A DNA stretch of 25,291 nucleotides, taken from a virus. The notes below the pieces were generated by a model. The model was not told where the DNA came from. It made no database searches and was given only the letters and a program-made list of their open reading frames with translations. The stretch spans positions 1 through 25,291 of IMG/VR virus record IMGVR_UViG_3300005960_000457. One strand, given 5' to 3'. This document shows, in pieces, positions 4,657-23,744 of this stretch (positions within the stretch are counted from its first letter, which is position 1; each line of letters starts with the position of its first letter). The translations under genes were made by a program, and so were the position numbers.

Positions 4657-5369
4657 AGTCTTTTCACATAAACTTCTTTCTTAAAAGAAGGGAACTTCCA
4701 CTTCTCATTATCAGGACCTGTTCTATAATCTCTGTCGGCAATATCTTTATTATAAACTTCCTCGTGTTCTTTTCTATCTTTATCTGGATGAGGATAGCCT
4801 ATTCCTAAGAGACAGTTACACTGGCTGTTTTCTATGTATGGTGCAACTTTGCTCTCATCAAAAGCAGAACACATTCCAGTTCTATATCCTAGTGATGTGG
4901 CAGCCATCATTAGTTGTCCTAATAAGATACCTTGACCCATATGTATAATTCTTGATTTTTCTTTCCATACATTAGGTTTAATTGACTCTTCACCTCTTTC
5001 ATCTACTATTCTATGAATGAGAGTTCTAGACTTACTCTGATCCCAATCATCGCATATTGCTATAAGTAAATTTGCTAATACCTGAGAGTTCTTAACGTTA
5101 TATTCATACTGTGTAACTCCATTACTGTCAGTCAAGTCTGTACCGTCATGAACAGCAAAATGATTAGTTTCATCATAAATCATTCTAACTACTTCTTGAT
5201 TCTCAATCATATAAACTTTATAATGAGTTTCATTTTGTTTTGTAGGAGCGAGTCTAATAATTTCTTCAAACAGATCTATGTGTTCTCTCGGTAGAGTTTT
5301 AGATCTGTCCCAATTTCTTTGTGCTGGATTTGTTGCTGCGACTGCAGACTTTATATCGTCAAGGAGCAT
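4653..5369 (-). CDS. Nitroreductase-family flavoprotein
   Basis: 238 residues. NWDRSKTLPREHIDLFEEI followed by RLAPTKQNETHYKVYMI matches the N-terminal FMN-binding region of the nitroreductase family, where the Arg/Ser/Asn residues contact FMN. GILLGQLMMAATSLGYRTGMC (about residues 147-167) matches the central helix plus the GLG..C segment. These are FMN-dependent NAD(P)H oxidoreductases; the substrate cannot be told from sequence. It overlaps the IscA-like gene by 11 bases and lies in a run with Fe-S and copper proteins, so a redox role is likely. Confidence 0.75.
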   Translation of the reverse strand: MLLDDIKSAVAATNPAQRNWDRSKTLPREHIDLFEEIIRLAPTKQNETHYKVYMIENQEVVRMIYDETNHFAVHDGTDLTDSNGVTQYEYNVKNSQVLANLLIAICDDWDQSKSRTLIHRIVDERGEESIKPNVWKEKSRIIHMGQGILLGQLMMAATSLGYRTGMCSAFDESKVAPYIENSQCNCLLGIGYPHPDKDRKEHEEVYNKDIADRDYRTGPDNEKWKFPSFKKEVYVKRL

Positions 5370-5724
5370 ATCCTATCTTCTCCATATCAAAGTTAACACT
5401 AATGCCGCAACCGCATGAGCTCTTAGCGTTAGGGTTTTTTATTTCGAAGTTACTACCTACAATACTCTTGACATAATCTAGTTCGGTTCCAAATAAAAAC
5501 ATAAGGCTAGTGCCACCTATTACAAATGCGCACTTGCCTTCTGTTGTTTTTATGACTTCATCATCTTTTTGAAGATCCTCAGGAGTCTTGACAAAGTCCC
5601 AATCGTACTCAAAACCAGCGCATCCGCCACCTTTTAGATTTAAGCTAACTCCGTAAACTTCGTTCTCTTCACAGAGTTTATCTATTTGTGCTTCAGCTGC
5701 TGGTGTTAGAGTACATACACTCAT
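5359..5724 (-). CDS. A-type Fe-S carrier (IscA/ErpA/HesB family)
   Basis: 121 residues. The three conserved cysteines are present: Cys35 in GGGCAGF and Cys104/Cys106 in SSCGCG, the ligand set that binds and hands over iron or [Fe-S] clusters. Length is slightly above the usual 107-115. HesB/IscA-like genes are common in T4-like cyanophages. Starts with ATGA overlapping the pseudoazurin stop, so it is coupled to it. With the NifU-like protein upstream it gives the phage both a scaffold-like and a carrier-like Fe-S component. Confidence 0.88.
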   Translation of the reverse strand: MSVCTLTPAAEAQIDKLCEENEVYGVSLNLKGGGCAGFEYDWDFVKTPEDLQKDDEVIKTTEGKCAFVIGGTSLMFLFGTELDYVKSIVGSNFEIKNPNAKSSCGCGISVNFDMEKIGYAP

Positions 5725-6167
5725 AGTTGTTCAAGTATCTCCTTAAACTTCTTTTTACTCTTTCCTCTAATCTTTATTTTCTTAATAGCGTCAAGATTTG
5801 AGTAATCTGCACCAACAACAACTGCGGCAATCATACCCATTGTTGCGTGTGGAGTACATTGATACATATACACACCAGGAGTGTCAAATGTTATTGAAAC
5901 TTCTTTGTTATTTTTTGACTTTTTTGGAAGTTCCCAACCTTCAGGTCCTGCAATAAAATGTACATTGTGTCCTTTAGATGACGGAACCCAAGTGATAGTG
6001 TCTCCTACATTAATACGAACTACATCTTCACTGTATACCATCTTTTCTTTGTCACGCTTGTTTAACATTTCAATCGTAATGTCTTCAGCTTGTGCAGCTG
6101 ACCAAAGAATGGTAGCAAAAAAGCTAAGTACCATAACTAGTAGTATTGGATTTTTCGGTGCTTTCAT
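5721..6167 (-). CDS. Pseudoazurin-like type I copper protein
   Basis: 148 residues with a signal peptide of about 27 residues ending AAQA, so periplasmic. The mature part begins ITIEMLNKRDKEKMVY, as in pseudoazurins, and has all four type I copper ligands: His67 in GHNV and Cys104, His107, Met112 in CTPHATMGM, with C-x2-H-x4-M spacing as in pseudoazurin. Pseudoazurin carries electrons from cytochromes to periplasmic reductases such as nitrite reductase, N2O reductase or cytochrome c peroxidase. GGAG lies upstream of the ATG and the start overlaps the preceding small gene (ATGA). Phage plastocyanin is known from cyanophages; a pseudoazurin is much less expected. Confidence 0.9.
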   Translation of the reverse strand: MKAPKNPILLVMVLSFFATILWSAAQAEDITIEMLNKRDKEKMVYSEDVVRINVGDTITWVPSSKGHNVHFIAGPEGWELPKKSKNNKEVSITFDTPGVYMYQCTPHATMGMIAAVVVGADYSNLDAIKKIKIRGKSKKKFKEILEQL

Positions 6168-6382: not shown

Positions 6383-6450
6383 TTAACTATTTCTCCTATT
6401 ATTGATATAGTGATTTCGATCATCCAGATGGCTGTAATTAACTCAATCAT
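6379..6450 (-). CDS. Candidate 23-residue membrane peptide
   Basis: A 23-codon frame (MIELITAIWMIEITISIIGE then IVK) that fills the gap between the NifU-like gene and the 72-residue gene. It overlaps the first by 8 bases and the second by ATGA. The peptide is hydrophobic throughout and could be one membrane helix. Its own ribosome site is weak, so it may be translated only by coupling. Too short for certainty. Confidence 0.35.
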   Translation of the reverse strand: MIELITAIWMIEITISIIGEIVK

Positions 6451-6751
6451 ATTGAGCGTTCCATCTACCGTCATCCGTGTAGTACGGATTATTAAAGTTT
6501 GGGTCGTCTACGCCTTCAACACCAGTAACTTCGTCTACATAGTGTTTAAGCATATTTTCTACACCTAGTTTTAGTGTAATAGAGCTAGCTGCACAACCAC
6601 TGCAACTACCCGATAATTGTACAAGAACACTACCCGTTTCCATATCAAAATCCTCAAGGCGAATGAATCCGCCGTGACTCGCCACAGCAGGCTGTACAGA
6701 GGTTTCGATAATTTCTCTAATATGTTCTAGTATTTCTTCTTTGCTTCTCAT
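6443..6751 (-). CDS. NifU C-terminal domain Fe-S scaffold protein
   Basis: 102 residues starting at the ATG at 6751. The frame continues upstream to 6823 but that part runs through a strong hairpin and past a late promoter, so it is probably not translated. The domain has the NifU/NfuA CxxC cluster site (Cys50 and Cys53 in GSCSGCAASS) after the typical PAVASHGG segment. NifU-like C-terminal domains assemble or carry [4Fe-4S] clusters. First gene of the coupled run leading to pseudoazurin, IscA-like protein and nitroreductase. A tail ending in WNAQYD follows the domain. Confidence 0.85.
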   Translation of the reverse strand: MRSKEEILEHIREIIETSVQPAVASHGGFIRLEDFDMETGSVLVQLSGSCSGCAASSITLKLGVENMLKHYVDEVTGVEGVDDPNFNNPYYTDDGRWNAQYD

Positions 6752-6764: not shown

Positions 6765-6780
6765 CTGGAATACGTAAGAT

Positions 6781-6802
6781 GGGAGGCTAACCGTGGCCTC
6801 CC
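6781..6802. other. Strong 7-bp GC hairpin
   Basis: GGGAGGC, an 8-base loop, then GCCTCCC. It stands between the GC-rich RNA region and the NifU gene. There is no U-tract on either strand, so it is not a standard terminator; it may be an RNA boundary or processing element. Confidence 0.5.
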
Positions 6803-7063
6803 GCGGATGTATTGAGGCATCACCCTTTGTGTTGAGCGAAATTGCTCTTAATGTGTGAAGAGAGGACTGTGGGTTCACCTCTAACTAGCTCGAACAAGAT
6901 ACCATTCTCATAACCGCTAGAACTTACTTCCGCTCGGGAGAGCGATGTGATTCTTACCCGCTAGGGCTCAAACCTGGGTACCACCCCTAAGCAATCAAGT
7001 TACGCATCTTGGTAATACGCGTTTCCTTGCACTTCACTATCCGACCCGTCGGTCAAATCTCGT
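6803..7063. ncRNA. Gene-free GC-rich stretch, possible structured RNA
   Basis: About 260 bases directly downstream of the tmRNA with no credible ORF and clearly more G+C than the surrounding genes. Small perfect stems include CGCTC-GGGA-GAGCG (6931-6944, a GNRA tetraloop if read on the plus strand), CCGA-cccg-TCGG (7041-7052), AGAGG...CCTCT (around 6862-6882) and GAGC...GCTC near 6835. I tested it by eye for tRNA arms, RNase P conserved regions and group I/II intron cores and found none. It could be a 3' trailer of the tmRNA precursor or an independent RNA; strand is undecided. Confidence 0.35.
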
Positions 7064-7430
7064 GGAGGGATTCTGTTTCCAAGCTCCCTCCTAGCTCAGT
7101 AAGATTAGGCTGCTAGAGCGTAATCCACAGGTGCAAAATTATCGTTTGCATTTAGTTTTGTTGATCTATGCGCGATCACCCGTCAAACTCCACTTCGATT
7201 CCATACCTGTCGATCCTAACTCTCCCCCCAAGAATACTTGACTTGATGGGCCGCATCAACTAAACCGTAAAACGTCTTACCGTTTCTGTCACCTGACTGC
7301 TAACCACCTTACTAAGCGGTGGTGCCCGGGCGGTGCTACGAAGGCCTATTAACCGGACCAAGTATTCTTGGTGGAGGAGTCGGGAATTGCACCCGAGTCC
7401 AGTATATCTTCACGTTGCTTCAACGTTTGA
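7064..7430 (-). ncRNA. ssrA: Permuted two-piece tmRNA (alphaproteobacterial type)
   Basis: tmRNA rescues stalled ribosomes and adds a degradation tag. The gene is permuted: the acceptor piece comes first in transcription (about 7430-7369). It has a hairpin ACGTTG-aag-CAACGT, a T-arm (TCGGG stem, loop TGCAATT, CCCGA), then CTCCTCC-A and an encoded CCA ending at 7369. After a spacer (7368-7229) whose ends pair (AAGAATACTTG/CAAGTATTCTT), the coding piece starts at 7228 with GGGGGAG. This pairs with CTCCTCC to form a 7-bp acceptor stem. GGATCGACAGG follows (tmRNA D-loop consensus), then the tag frame at 7149-7105 and a final hairpin GGAGGGA...TCCCTCC ending near 7064. The T-loop has G where U55 is usual. 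Total length, about 367, suits alphaproteobacterial ssrA. Confidence 0.9.
7105..7149 (-). other. tmRNA tag reading frame
   Basis: Resume codon GCA at 7149 begins ANDNFAPVDYALAA followed by TAA. The ANDNFA start and the ALAA end match alphaproteobacterial proteolysis tags, where the terminal LAA/VAA is the ClpXP degron. The stop codon lies in a small hairpin (GATTA...TAATC), like helix P5 of tmRNA. Confidence 0.9.
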
Positions 7431-7435
7431 AATTA

Positions 7436-7443
7436 TATTTATA
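7436..7443 (-). promoter_or_regulatory. T4-type late promoter at the tmRNA gene
   Basis: Exact TATAAATA on the minus strand, abutting the -10 box of the sigma70-type promoter and ending 6 bases before the predicted acceptor-piece region. The tmRNA could therefore be made both early and late. Confidence 0.5.
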
Positions 7444-7471
7444 TTATACCATATTTCTACGTGTTTGTAAA
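7443..7471 (-). promoter_or_regulatory. Sigma70-type promoter of the tmRNA
   Basis: Minus strand TTTACA, 17-base spacer, TATAAT with TGG before the -10 (extended -10). Predicted start near 7436, just ahead of the acceptor piece. Confidence 0.8.
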
Positions 7472-7489
7472 CCCCTTTTTTTTATTTTT

Positions 7490-8458: not shown

Positions 8459-9481
8459 TTAGTCTGGTAAGAAAGCGTCAATACCTTCAACATATTGATT
8501 CATTCCTAGTAGATCTCCAACACCTTTTCCTGGAAATATATCTAGTTTACCTTCTAGAATGTCCTTTTCAACTGCCATAGCAATTTCTTTGACATCATCT
8601 GGCATATTAGTATAAGGTGCCATTTCTACCATTCCAGTATCCATACCTCCCCATGTGTCAGACTTTTCCCAAGTACCATCAAGAACAGCTTTTACTCTCT
8701 CAACATAGTAAGGTCCCCATATATCTAGAATAGCAGTTAATTGAGTATCAGGTGCAAAGTTAATCATATCAGACGCTTGTCCAAATGCTTTCACTCCGTT
8801 CTGTTGTGCAACTTGTAGTGCAGCAGGAGAATCTGTGTGTTGTGTAATAATATCAGCGCCTTGTTGAATTAGTGCTTTAGCAGCATCTGATTCCAAACTT
8901 GGATCATACCAAGTATTAACCCAAACAACATCAATGTCAAAGTCAGGATTTACTGTAGTTGCACCTAGATAAAAAGCGTTGATACCACGTACAACTTCAG
9001 GTATTGGAAAGGAAGCAATATAACCGGCTTTTCCTTTTTCACTCATATGACCAGCAATAACTCCTTGGATATATCTTCCTTCATAAAATTTAGAAGAATA
9101 CACTGACATATTTTCAGCTGTTTTATATCCAGTCGCGTGTTCAAACTTTACATCTGGAAATTTTTCTGCTACTTTTAGCATTTGTTCCATATATCCAAAT
9201 GATGTTGCAAAAATCATATCGACTCCTTGCATTGCCATCTGAGTCATGACGCGTTCTGCATCCGGACCATACTTTACACTTTCAACAAACATGGTTTCAA
9301 CTTTATCGCCAAACTCTTCTTCAATAGCTTGACGTCCTTTATCGTGCATATAAGTCCAACCATGGTCTCCGGTTGGTCCTACATATACGAATCCTACTTT
9401 CAGTGGATCTGCAATTGCAGCAGAAAACACGAAAGACAATGGTAGTAATGCTACTACCAAAGCATTGAGTAATACTCTCAT
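8459..9481 (-). CDS. BMP-family periplasmic solute-binding protein
   Basis: 340 residues, a full-length substrate-binding protein of the BMP/PnrA (Med-like) family. The signal peptide (about 1-24, ending AAIA) has no lipobox Cys, so the mature protein is free in the periplasm. Family marks are KVGFVYVGPTGDHGW at the mature N-terminus, GVDMIFATSFGY, FEHATGY, YEGRYIQGVIAGHMS, GADIITQHTDSPAALQVAQ and GVKAFGQASDM. BMP proteins feed ABC transporters; characterised ones bind purine nucleosides. No transporter genes lie nearby, so it would have to use a host permease. AAAGGA lies 5 bases before the ATG. It stands alone between its own leader and a terminator, like a single-gene cargo unit. Confidence 0.9.
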   Translation of the reverse strand: MRVLLNALVVALLPLSFVFSAAIADPLKVGFVYVGPTGDHGWTYMHDKGRQAIEEEFGDKVETMFVESVKYGPDAERVMTQMAMQGVDMIFATSFGYMEQMLKVAEKFPDVKFEHATGYKTAENMSVYSSKFYEGRYIQGVIAGHMSEKGKAGYIASFPIPEVVRGINAFYLGATTVNPDFDIDVVWVNTWYDPSLESDAAKALIQQGADIITQHTDSPAALQVAQQNGVKAFGQASDMINFAPDTQLTAILDIWGPYYVERVKAVLDGTWEKSDTWGGMDTGMVEMAPYTNMPDDVKEIAMAVEKDILEGKLDIFPGKGVGDLLGMNQYVEGIDAFLPD

Positions 9482-10764: not shown

Positions 10765-10980
10765 TTAGTTTTTGTAAGTCTTTCCCATCTCTATCATACG
10801 TTCCTCATACTCTTTAGCAACTTCTGGATCATATTTACTTCCAGTTCCATCAGCACCAAAGTCAAATATTGCAAGTGCTATTAAAATTACTACAATCCAG
10901 ATACCACCAACTTTACATAGTCTTAAGAACTTTGTGTAAGCTTCTTCTGCTTGCACCTGCGCCTCTTCTCTTACTGTCAT
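10765..10980 (-). CDS. Small single-span membrane protein (possible holin)
   Basis: 71 residues with one membrane helix (about 26-43, GGIWIVVILIALAIFDFG) between a charged N-terminus and an acidic/basic C-terminal tail. The ATG overlaps the ThyX stop as ATGA. It lies just upstream of the endolysin, separated by 113 bases that contain the endolysin promoter. Position next to a lysin makes a holin conceivable; a single-span bacterial aa3-oxidase subunit IV-like protein would look similar. No decisive motif. Confidence 0.65.
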   Translation of the reverse strand: MTVREEAQVQAEEAYTKFLRLCKVGGIWIVVILIALAIFDFGADGTGSKYDPEVAKEYEERMIEMGKTYKN

Positions 10981-11852
10981 TTAATATCCTCTAACTTCTT
11001 AATTCCTAACGCCCAGTTTTCTGCAGCATCTTCAACGTACCTAATAGATTTATTAGGAAACTCTTCTTTAAAGAAGAACTTATCATTCTCATCGTAATAT
11101 TTTATATAAGCCATCTCTTCTTTAAAGTCCATGAAAACAATGGCTTTACCTTTATCATTGTCTGCATAGTGAGTTGTGATTTCTCGTCCCATATCTGTAT
11201 CTCCTAATACTGGAAAGATATCTGAAATTATACGGCCGCATGCTCTGGCCAATTCCATGTGTTCCTTTTGTGTTCCATTTCCAGATCTTAGTTCAATGTA
11301 ATGTACCCAAGACCTGAGTGTTCCATTAACGTATAATCTTGACTTGGTGTTTCCTTCAGGAAGTATACATCTAGCTTGTTCTTTTGCGATTCCTTTATCT
11401 ATTGCTTCTTTATAAATTTCCTTTACATGATCTATAATAAATTTCTGCTTTGCGTCCCACCAGACTTTCAATGATGAGTCATCAGTTTCAATGCTGTTTT
11501 GCCTGTTTGACTCATCCTGTAGCCTAGCTTCTCTCACCACAAAACTATCCCCAAGATCAGCAACGCTAGAATAGCGCTGAGAAAACTCTTGAAAGCTAAA
11601 CGATCTGTGTCGAAGAAGTTGTCTAGCGATGTCTCTTGTTGTTTCGATCTCGAGTGTTGCTGAGGCCATTTCGAGAGGTGACCAGTGCTTGTTCTTGATG
11701 AGGTATTTGATAAGCTTTTCACTCGTCTTTTTGTTATTTTGGTTTGATGGATTGGAGACACGGGCACAGAAGGCCACGAAATCTTTGGCGGAATTGATGT
11801 CATCTATAAAATCTCCTTCTGGTTTTGTATATCCAACTATTCTAACTTTCAC
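10977..11852 (-). CDS. thyX: FAD-dependent thymidylate synthase ThyX
   Basis: 291 residues. ThyX methylates dUMP to dTMP using methylene-tetrahydrofolate, FAD and NADPH. The signature RHRxxSxxxxSxR motif is intact at residues 81-93 (RHRSFSFQEFSQR), with the QARCILPEG segment further on and a typical C-terminal tail. The start is GTG at 11850-11852, overlapping the preceding stop, with GGGGA 9 bases upstream. Because the ThyA-fold gene at 22685 looks like a dCMP hydroxymethylase, ThyX is probably the real dTMP source of this phage. Confidence 0.96.
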   Translation of the reverse strand: MKVRIVGYTKPEGDFIDDINSAKDFVAFCARVSNPSNQNNKKTSEKLIKYLIKNKHWSPLEMASATLEIETTRDIARQLLRHRSFSFQEFSQRYSSVADLGDSFVVREARLQDESNRQNSIETDDSSLKVWWDAKQKFIIDHVKEIYKEAIDKGIAKEQARCILPEGNTKSRLYVNGTLRSWVHYIELRSGNGTQKEHMELARACGRIISDIFPVLGDTDMGREITTHYADNDKGKAIVFMDFKEEMAYIKYYDENDKFFFKEEFPNKSIRYVEDAAENWALGIKKLEDIK

Positions 11853-22274: not shown

Positions 22275-22695
22275 ATGCAACTCCCGCTTCAGTAAACATA
22301 GACTGCGTTAAGCCCCATGATTCTTTCCAGCGGTCGGTGATTTCTTGTTTTGGCATAACTACTCTTTTTACACCTACTTGTACTATTCCTTTTGCACAAT
22401 CTGAGCAACAAGGAAGTCCTACAACATAAAAGGTACTACCTTCTAGTGATATACCACTAAAGGCAGCATTGAATATAGTATTCATCTCTGCATGTACAAT
22501 ATACTTAAGTTTGATTTCTCTATTTTCTAATCTATCATTATCTGATATGCTACGAGGAAACCCATTATAACCTTGTGCTAGAACTTGACCCTTTTCACCA
22601 ATAGCAACGCATCCAATCTTAGATGATGGATCCTTTGACCATTTAGATATTCTTTCAGCTAGCTCTAAGTATCGCTTATCCCATTTATTTGACAA
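22261..22695 (-). CDS. cd: Deoxycytidylate (dCMP) deaminase
   Basis: 144 residues from a TTG at 22695 with AAAGG upstream; this gives MSNKWDKRYLELAERIS, a typical phage dCMP deaminase start. An ATG at 22719 is in frame but overlaps the previous gene by 35 bases. Zinc-binding motifs are HAEMNTI (His68, catalytic Glu70) and PCCSDCAKGI (Cys97, Cys100). It converts dCMP to dUMP, feeding ThyX. It shares its substrate with the hydroxymethylase encoded just upstream, which places control of the dCMP pool in one operon. Confidence 0.92.
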   Translation of the reverse strand: MSNKWDKRYLELAERISKWSKDPSSKIGCVAIGEKGQVLAQGYNGFPRSISDNDRLENREIKLKYIVHAEMNTIFNAAFSGISLEGSTFYVVGLPCCSDCAKGIVQVGVKRVVMPKQEITDRWKESWGLTQSMFTEAGVAFEFI

Positions 22696-23344
22696 GATGA
22701 AAGTGCCTTTCGTAAACATGTAGATTTTGTACTTGCCATGTTATAAAGCCTGCTTCAATTCCTAACATTTCTGCTAGTTCTTTTTGAACAAATCTTTGCC
22801 AGGCGTAATCATTTTTATATCCATATACAACATCATTTGACCGCATTTGAACTACAGCTTGCAACTCGTCATTTCGAATATAGTAAGTAACTGAATTAGT
22901 ACAAATAAAGTCGTTCTTACCATCTTCATTATATTCATGCCAGATAGACGGACGATTGTAAATCATTGAGGCCCTACGACCATCTGGATTATCTCGCAAT
23001 TCTCTGTAAACGTTTCCAAACTGATTATAGTATTTATCACTGTAAATTAGTTTACCATAATTAGAATTAATCTCACCTTCCTTATTTGCTGAGTACTGCC
23101 AAGCTGCCGGTGGTTCTGGTTTATCCCATATGTCATTAATATTAGTAGACTCAGACTTATACCACTTTAGTTCTGCATCAATATACTCATTGTTTGGTTC
23201 ACCAAAGATAGCCGGCTCATCTGCTAGAAAAGAAGCACCGAGTAGTTCAATTGTTTTTTGACCTGTTTTATCTAACTCAAAAGCTTCATCATTAAGTTCA
23301 TCAATAAAGTATTGACGAATATCTTTAACACTATATGTTATCAT
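22685..23344 (-). CDS. 42: dCMP hydroxymethylase (T4 gp42 type)
   Basis: 219 residues, thymidylate-synthase fold, from ATG 23344 (GTG 23347 is adjacent; AGAGAG upstream). RRASMIYNRPS is the phosphate-binding Arg region, and Cys148 in DFICTNS is the nucleophile. MRSNDVVYGYKNDYAWQ aligns with the TS segment RSxDxxLGxPFNxxxY. The TS Asn that selects dUMP is replaced by Asp179, the change that lets T4 dCMP hydroxymethylase accept dCMP. Both residue numbers equal those of T4 gp42. It makes 5-hydroxymethyl-dCMP from dCMP and methylene-tetrahydrofolate. Next to dCMP deaminase, and in the same genome as ThyX and an AGT-like enzyme, it implies hmC-containing phage DNA. Confidence 0.9.
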   Translation of the reverse strand: MITYSVKDIRQYFIDELNDEAFELDKTGQKTIELLGASFLADEPAIFGEPNNEYIDAELKWYKSESTNINDIWDKPEPPAAWQYSANKEGEINSNYGKLIYSDKYYNQFGNVYRELRDNPDGRRASMIYNRPSIWHEYNEDGKNDFICTNSVTYYIRNDELQAVVQMRSNDVVYGYKNDYAWQRFVQKELAEMLGIEAGFITWQVQNLHVYERHFHLVK

Positions 23345-23744
23345 CACAAACTCTCTTTCTTAGATCTGATGAAGAAAACCTATGGTCTCTCTTATTAAAG
23401 TATAAATCTATTCCTCTGTTACGACACTCATCTTTTCCAGTGAAATCTTTCTGTCTATACTCTTCACCTAGGATTCTTACATCAATTGGATACATGTTTA
23501 TTATATCAATTAAATCGGCTTCTGTACAATAAATAATGACTTCGTCTACATATTTTATTGCAGAAAGTTGTGCTTGTCTTTCTACAATAGATTGTATAGG
23601 AGAGTTCTTTTCTTTTCTATCAAAAGTAGGATCTACCTGTAGACCGCATATTAAATAATCACATTGAGCCTTCGCCTCTCTCAACATCATAACATGGCCT
23701 GCATGAAGTAAATCAAAAGTACTACATGTAAATCCTACCTTCAT
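23331..23744 (-). CDS. Cytidylyltransferase-like nucleotidyltransferase (TagD/RfaE type)
   Basis: 137 residues. CSTFDLLHAGHVMML contains the HxGH motif (His14-Ala-Gly-His17) of the nucleotidyltransferase alpha/beta-phosphodiesterase family, and FSSSDLRKRV near the end corresponds to the ISSTxIR nucleotide-binding motif. Size and motifs match glycerol-3-phosphate cytidylyltransferases, often seen in T4-like cyanophages. It would activate an alcohol or sugar phosphate with CTP. ATGA overlap with the small secreted gene upstream; overlaps the hydroxymethylase by 14 bases. The acceptor is not identifiable. Confidence 0.85.
   Translation of the reverse strand: MKVGFTCSTFDLLHAGHVMMLREAKAQCDYLICGLQVDPTFDRKEKNSPIQSIVERQAQLSAIKYVDEVIIYCTEADLIDIINMYPIDVRILGEEYRQKDFTGKDECRNRGIDLYFNKRDHRFSSSDLRKRVCDDNI

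Follow-up and report, generated by a model that had tools for sequence, protein, structure and literature searches.

The locus raises two questions: whether a virus here carries a complete permuted two-piece tmRNA gene, and what occupies the sequence between its two pieces. The DNA analysed, called the window below, is a 25,291-base IMG/VR virus record, and the tmRNA lies on its minus strand. The initial annotation, made from the sequence alone, had described a permuted two-piece phage tmRNA and had proposed a search with the alphaproteobacterial tmRNA covariance model as a check. ARAGORN called a permuted tmRNA at 7014-7461 (-) with the tag ANDNFAPVDYALAA, the same tag as had been read before. 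In the proposed covariance search, Rfam alpha_tmRNA (RF01849) matched 7061-7475 (-) with 94.2 bits, where the gathering score is 50 (E 9.5e-25), and tmRNA_permuted (RF04321) matched 7105-7430 (-) with 103.5 bits against a gathering score of 47 (E 1.8e-19). These scores are far beyond chance. A tmRNA gene of the permuted two-piece form is present and complete, and the earlier reading of the sequence is confirmed.

Read 5′ to 3′, the gene consists of the promoter, the T arm, the acceptor 3′ strand, CCA, an intervening sequence (IVS), G1, the tag and a 3′ hairpin ending at about 7061 (Table 1; L numbers are our labels for other sequences in the comparison). Re-reading of the sequence gave the same piece ends as had been annotated, with the CCA end (A76) at 7369, G1 of the coding piece at 7228 and a 140-nt IVS between them. 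The acceptor stem had been described as perfect. It is complete, with 7 bp (GGGGGAG/CUCCUCC) followed by an encoded ACCA, but not all of its pairs are Watson-Crick, since it contains a G3-U70 wobble. The G3-U70 pair is an identity element of tRNA-Ala.

Table 1. Positions of the tmRNA gene, its intervening sequence and neighbouring features in the window
Feature	Position	Strand	Basis or remark
sigma70-type promoter: -35 TTTACA (7471-7466), 17 nt, TG-extended -10 TATAAT (7448-7443)	7443-7471	-	11/12 consensus matches
Late-promoter-like TATAAATA, overlapping the -10	7436-7443	-	Direct sequence
tmRNA acceptor piece: T arm, acceptor 3′ strand (7379-7373), A73-CCA (7372-7369)	7369-7430 (5′ end approximate)	-	RF01849, RF04321, ARAGORN
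Extension helix, 5′ strand (C75, A76 and first 10 IVS bases)	7359-7370	-	Pairs with 7229-7240
IVS, 140 nt, predicted to be removed on maturation	7229-7368	-	Between CCA end and G1
Putative IVS-borne structured RNA: three helices and pseudoknot	7241-7358	-	3 lineages, 97.8% of cells paired, 8 double-change pairs
Extension helix, 3′ strand, directly before G1	7229-7240	-	Pairs with 7359-7370; A-U to U-A compensatory change, window versus L125
tmRNA coding piece, with the acceptor 5′ strand (7228-7222), the region of the tag and the 3′ hairpin	7061-7228	-	RF01849 match
Tag reading frame ANDNFAPVDYALAA and stop	7105-7149	-	ARAGORN; identical tag in L053, L124, L125
manA RNA (RF01745), 4 nt past tmRNA 3′ end	6851-7056	-	56.4 bits versus gathering 55.2, marginal
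Further hairpins between manA and nifU (GAGC/GCUC; GGGAGGC/GCCUCCC)	6770-6850	-	Paired changes, window versus L125
nifU-like gene, first of Fe-S assembly group	6443-6751	-	PF01106, E 1.4e-22
Cupredoxin	5721-6167	-	PF00127, E 9.1e-18
A-type carrier	5359-5724	-	PF01521, E 3.2e-14

Phage-borne permuted tmRNA is already known, so the tmRNA itself is not new (PMC9004378). A survey of phage genomes reported 53 two-piece tmRNAs, 50 of them marine or aquatic (PMC9004378), and a tmRNA database of 2025 holds 79 phage sequences of all forms (PMC11915505). A tag-less tmRNA of phage DS6A has been reported to inhibit trans-translation (PMC11915505). With this precedent, the phage RNA could be regarded as an inhibitor or decoy of the host system, and the lack of a phage SmpB would agree with such a role: a search of the window and 12 further phage records, complete Melnitz among them, gave none. 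The tag frame, with its stop codon and hydrophobic end, is nevertheless intact, as are CCA and G3-U70, and in dozens of relatives the tags vary yet end in ALAA-like signals. Inhibition is therefore very improbable. As a functional tmRNA, the phage RNA would depend on the SmpB of the host, and it might, as the initial annotation proposed, replace or supplement ribosome rescue by the host.

The initial annotation had also reported exact, overlapping sigma70-type and late promoters just upstream. The overlap is seen and the layout is conserved, but ‘exact’ does not hold for the sigma70-type element, which agrees with the consensus at only 11 of 12 positions. Of 72 phage tmRNA loci, 45 have this promoter arrangement at an equal distance, and in 48 TATAAATA occupies a fixed place ~76 nt ahead of the CCA end; the layout across most phage loci reads TTGACA-N17-TATAAATA at a fixed distance. 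Conservation among relatives strongly supports a real composite sigma70/late promoter, and its layout would fit both early and late transcription.

In marine phages the two ends of the IVS are complementary and lengthen the acceptor stem by ~12 bp, with the CCA end paired. Across 61 distinct phage helices, 94.3% of cells in this extension helix are paired, and compensatory changes occur at 10 of the 12 pairs. Column shuffles gave a mean of 68.1% and a maximum of 71.0%, and strand swaps a mean of 68.1% and a maximum of 73.8%. A helix of at least 9 bp was present in 55 of 76 phage IVSs, compared with 9 of 75 bacterial IVSs and 0.3-0.4% of shuffled sequences. The helix is annotated in neither of the two Rfam tmRNA models; it may have been mentioned earlier in the two-piece tmRNA literature. 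By pairing the CCA end, the hairpin may delay maturation. Bacterial tmRNAs of the alphaproteobacterial type (RF01849) share the gene order, the tRNA-like domain, the tag context (ANDN...) and G3-U70 with the phage gene, but their IVS is short (median 34 nt versus 81 nt in phages) and mostly lacks the extension helix and cargo, and their bit scores are typically ~160-310, compared with 94 here. Among the bacterial exceptions are Micavibrio-type genomes: a phage-like extension helix was seen in the tmRNAs of L213, L217, L290 and L291, which are from Micavibrio-type and other alphaproteobacterial genomes, and several of their tags have the ANDN unit repeated.

Phages commonly integrate at ssrA, and this is among the origins suggested for the Melnitz tmRNA (PMC9004378). 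The gene might accordingly have been left behind when a prophage excised from a host ssrA, and be under no selection. Many marine viral contigs, however, carry the tmRNA with the fixed phage promoter layout, the extension helix covaries in phages, and the phage copies score far below the bacterial ones, which marks them as old and diverged. A 16-base core pattern was found in at least 120 viral-contig stretches, and most of those listed contain a permuted tmRNA. Because promoter and helix are conserved, we give hardly any credence to a prophage remnant.

We also analysed the content of the IVS of the window, which holds no open reading frame. Its folding energy is no better than that of shuffled sequences (MFE z -0.60, not significant), and covariation was used instead for this reason. 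Sequence blocks of the IVS are common to the IVSs of L095/L202-L210 (103 nt) and L438/L466/L469 (~120 nt). In the three-lineage alignment, a 31-pair structure including a pseudoknot has 97.8% of cells paired and double changes at 8 of 31 pairs, the pseudoknot included, as scored on the same three lineages on which the structure was drawn. Controls with slid partners reached at most 47% paired. The pseudoknot GGCC/GGCC is CGCC/GGCG in L438, its pair 29-127 being C-G in one of the three lineages and G-C in the others. The number of pairs with a double change was matched by 46 of 500 shuffles, and a second covariation measure, further pair types, was not raised at all.

A search of the IVS against 4227 Rfam families gave no match at E up to 1 besides the tmRNA models that span it. 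A covariance model of the RNA (R1) matches the full RNA only in tmRNA IVSs, in three lineages; in other phages it matches the closing helix only. Similarly, in viral contigs the core pattern of the IVS RNA was found in tmRNA IVSs only. One match to the exact core CAGTCAGGTGACAGAA, in L200, was rejected as unrelated and due to chance. No copy was found in 230 alphaproteobacterial genomes, in a search that had no positive control. These comparisons support a conserved structured RNA with a pseudoknot in the window IVS, present in three phage lineages.

Could the IVS content instead be inert filler, held in place by the closing helix and conserved through recent common ancestry? The folding energy, the small number of lineages and the local identity to L125 are in keeping with this. 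The IVS is identical to that of L125 at 136 of 140 positions, and 332 of 2645 windows along the locus are equally good. An earlier impression that the IVS is unusually conserved was accordingly dropped: it holds against the tmRNA pieces and manA, but along the locus as a whole the IVS does not stand out. What speaks against filler is that three diverged lineages show double changes of a compensatory kind, in several of the helices as well as in the pseudoknot, and we consider it unlikely.

In other phages the IVS contains protein genes. In many of the longer phage IVSs a reading frame, with a start codon and a Shine-Dalgarno sequence, takes up the space to an extent beyond dinucleotide shuffles (p <=0.01 for L081/L108, L021/L085, Melnitz L002, L039, L167, L006, L054, L062 and L033). 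Homologous frames gave dN/dS values of ~0.17 (L021/L085), 0.07-0.15 (L054/L069/L115) and 0.04 (L017/L089). The IVS protein of L062 is 59% identical to the product of an annotated gene that immediately precedes the Melnitz tmRNA and has further free-standing homologues in L070, L081 and L083; that of L033 is 65% identical to a gene downstream of the L028 tmRNA, and the membrane peptide in the L054 IVS has matches at several loci. Reading frames, dN far below dS and free-standing homologues together indicate that the IVS is a real gene site. Searches of the IVS proteins against Pfam and PHROGs gave nothing significant, and an assignment of the L021/L085 protein as a Bfd-type ferredoxin was discarded, since Pfam did not support it. 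The nested small genes (L062, L033, L054, L081, L021, L002 and others) are unannotated even in the isolated Melnitz phages, and some IVS protein genes extend into the tmRNA coding piece. In L017, L054, L069, L089 and L115 the extension helix contains the Shine-Dalgarno sequence (AAAAGGAG) from which the IVS gene would be translated, and translation should therefore compete with tmRNA folding.

The IVS cargo that we found reported earlier comprises one tRNA and one repetitive element. The nested tRNA, in a permuted tmRNA IVS, was described as unique (PMC11915505). That case, GCA-2688965, resembles the present one in having a gene (tRNA-Ala) within the IVS, but its genome is binned as archaeal, and the cargo is a putative new structured RNA in the window and protein genes in its relatives. 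A site that accepts unrelated protein genes tolerates cargo, and the window IVS could then serve as a transcribed, precisely excised source of a free small RNA with targets in the host or the phage and no effect on the tmRNA. Conservation of the structure over three lineages agrees with this; the pattern search of viral contigs and the R1 searches, which did not find the RNA outside tmRNA IVSs, count against it. We regard a free small RNA as quite possible, though short of probable.

Directly behind the tmRNA lies a marginal match to the manA RNA. The same arrangement was found in L125 (67.5 bits), L053 (60.8 bits) and L438/L469 (61.8/63.4 bits), so that the tmRNA-manA tandem occurs in three lineages, with a spacing of 4-16 nt. 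The downstream context of manA differs: nifU in the window, a small membrane-protein-like gene in L053 and a terminator-like hairpin with a T run in L438. In the window nifU starts 100 nt downstream of manA, with a late-type promoter between them. As in the original description (RF01745, Weinberg 2010, PMC2864571), manA is identified by a covariance match, in a marine/phage setting and in a possible leader position; the difference here is its place between tmRNA and nifU, immediately after the tmRNA and presumably in one transcript with it. The main text of that report has no mention of tmRNA (PMC2864571). The hairpins at 6770-6850 could be the expression part of a switch or another RNA. A late-promoter-like TAAATA ends 2-6 nt before the nifU start codon, with no Shine-Dalgarno sequence, in the window (6764-6749) and in 13 distinct related nifU loci, and this placement suggests a leaderless late nifU mRNA. 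Just upstream of nifU in L133-L147, L164 and L177 there is a class II, Leu-like tRNA gene of ~85-102 nt with G73. Its anticodon loop is CUGUUUA or similar, with an apparent GUU anticodon, and its type in ARAGORN varies between Asp, Glu, Asn and unknown.

The closest described counterparts are the Melnitz phages, in which a permuted tmRNA stands beside a glutamine riboswitch (PMC9004378). Their ssrA (MZ577095-MZ577098) is likewise a phage-borne permuted alpha-type tmRNA, with the tag ANDNYVPVDYALAA, and is 76% identical in DNA to that of the window over part of its length. It has the extension helix and the early/late promoter, and an aptamer RNA immediately follows the tmRNA on its 3′ side. 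In contrast to the window, the aptamer in manA's position is a glutamine riboswitch, the neighbouring gene differs, and the IVS holds an unannotated frame (41 codons in the IVS) rather than a structured RNA. In L039 a glutamine riboswitch (2150-2198) lies upstream, not downstream, of the phage tmRNA. Aptamers placed after the tmRNA would, on the simplest reading, control what lies behind them and not the tmRNA; the wording of PMC9004378 differs from this.

Aptamer-type RNAs (manA, glutamine) adjoining phage tmRNAs also bring up a processing switch, in which folding or ligand binding of the IVS RNA would engage the RNase P site as well as the CCA end in pairing and so set the amount of mature tmRNA. 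The closing helix, which is the extended acceptor stem, does pair C75 and A76 and ends beside G1, and the domain layout is junction-like, with a loop-loop pseudoknot. The helix is nevertheless present in most phages, with other cargo or none, and thus does not need the domain, and no known aptamer was matched. A switch of this kind is decidedly unlikely.

We consider it likely that the locus encodes a working two-piece tmRNA of a marine T4-like phage, with the IVS as a cargo site and manA as presumed leader of the nifU/Fe-S genes. The acceptor piece, the IVS and the coding piece would be transcribed together from the composite early/late promoter. In the precursor, the IVS would extend the acceptor stem as a 12-bp helix with the CCA end paired, and would then be excised by host RNase P and 3′-end nucleases. 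The resulting two-piece RNA could be charged by host AlaRS through G3-U70 and, with host SmpB, would rescue stalled ribosomes and add ANDNFAPVDYALAA for proteolysis. The IVS RNA of the window would be released or be active within the precursor, small protein genes taking its place in the IVSs of other phages, and manA, on the same RNA, would serve nifU and the other Fe-S genes as a leader. A more far-reaching idea is that the phage IVS is a regulated cargo platform. An RNA domain in the window, or a small gene in its relatives, would be built into a hairpin that hides both the RNase P site and the CCA end, and tmRNA maturation would be under mutual control with the folding or translation of the cargo. 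We find this doubtful.

The extension helix, the IVS cargo and manA directly behind the tmRNA go beyond the initial annotation. The literature that we found on phage permuted tmRNAs treats the IVS as sequence merely missing from the mature tmRNA. In marine phages it is a gene site, enclosed in a conserved hairpin with which the 3′ end of the tmRNA is paired, and RNAs of aptamer type are found repeatedly just after the tmRNA. One presumed transcript would thus join the rescue of ribosomes with small genes and a candidate metabolite-sensing RNA, and sequence-level predictions for pre-tmRNA processing follow.

The host of the phage had been taken from the tmRNA to be alphaproteobacterial. Melnitz phages, which carry the same tmRNA type, infect Methylophilales OM43, placed in Gammaproteobacteria (PMC9004378), and the tmRNA type thus cannot prove the host; caution is needed wherever an alpha-type tmRNA alone is used to identify one. 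Host assignment from the tag was set aside as well, tags being too variable. SAR11, or another alphaproteobacterium, is a plausible host. The neighbouring proteins are closest to those of Kyanoviridae-type phages, and a hypothetical protein near the tmRNA is common to Melnitz and Pelagibacter phage Mosig. UvsX is 76% identical to that of phage C48C1, a syntenic relative with a similar gene order in which no tmRNA was found, so the tmRNA gene is accessory. Other genes of the window include a phage-encoded ATP-type phosphoenolpyruvate carboxykinase (1535-2731; PF01293, E 7.7e-90) and a Bmp/PnrA-like ABC transporter substrate-binding protein (8459-9481; PF02608, E 5.9e-56). In this one phage fragment ThyX is accompanied by a protein of ThyA fold that may be a dCMP-modifying enzyme (10977-11852 and 22685-23347).
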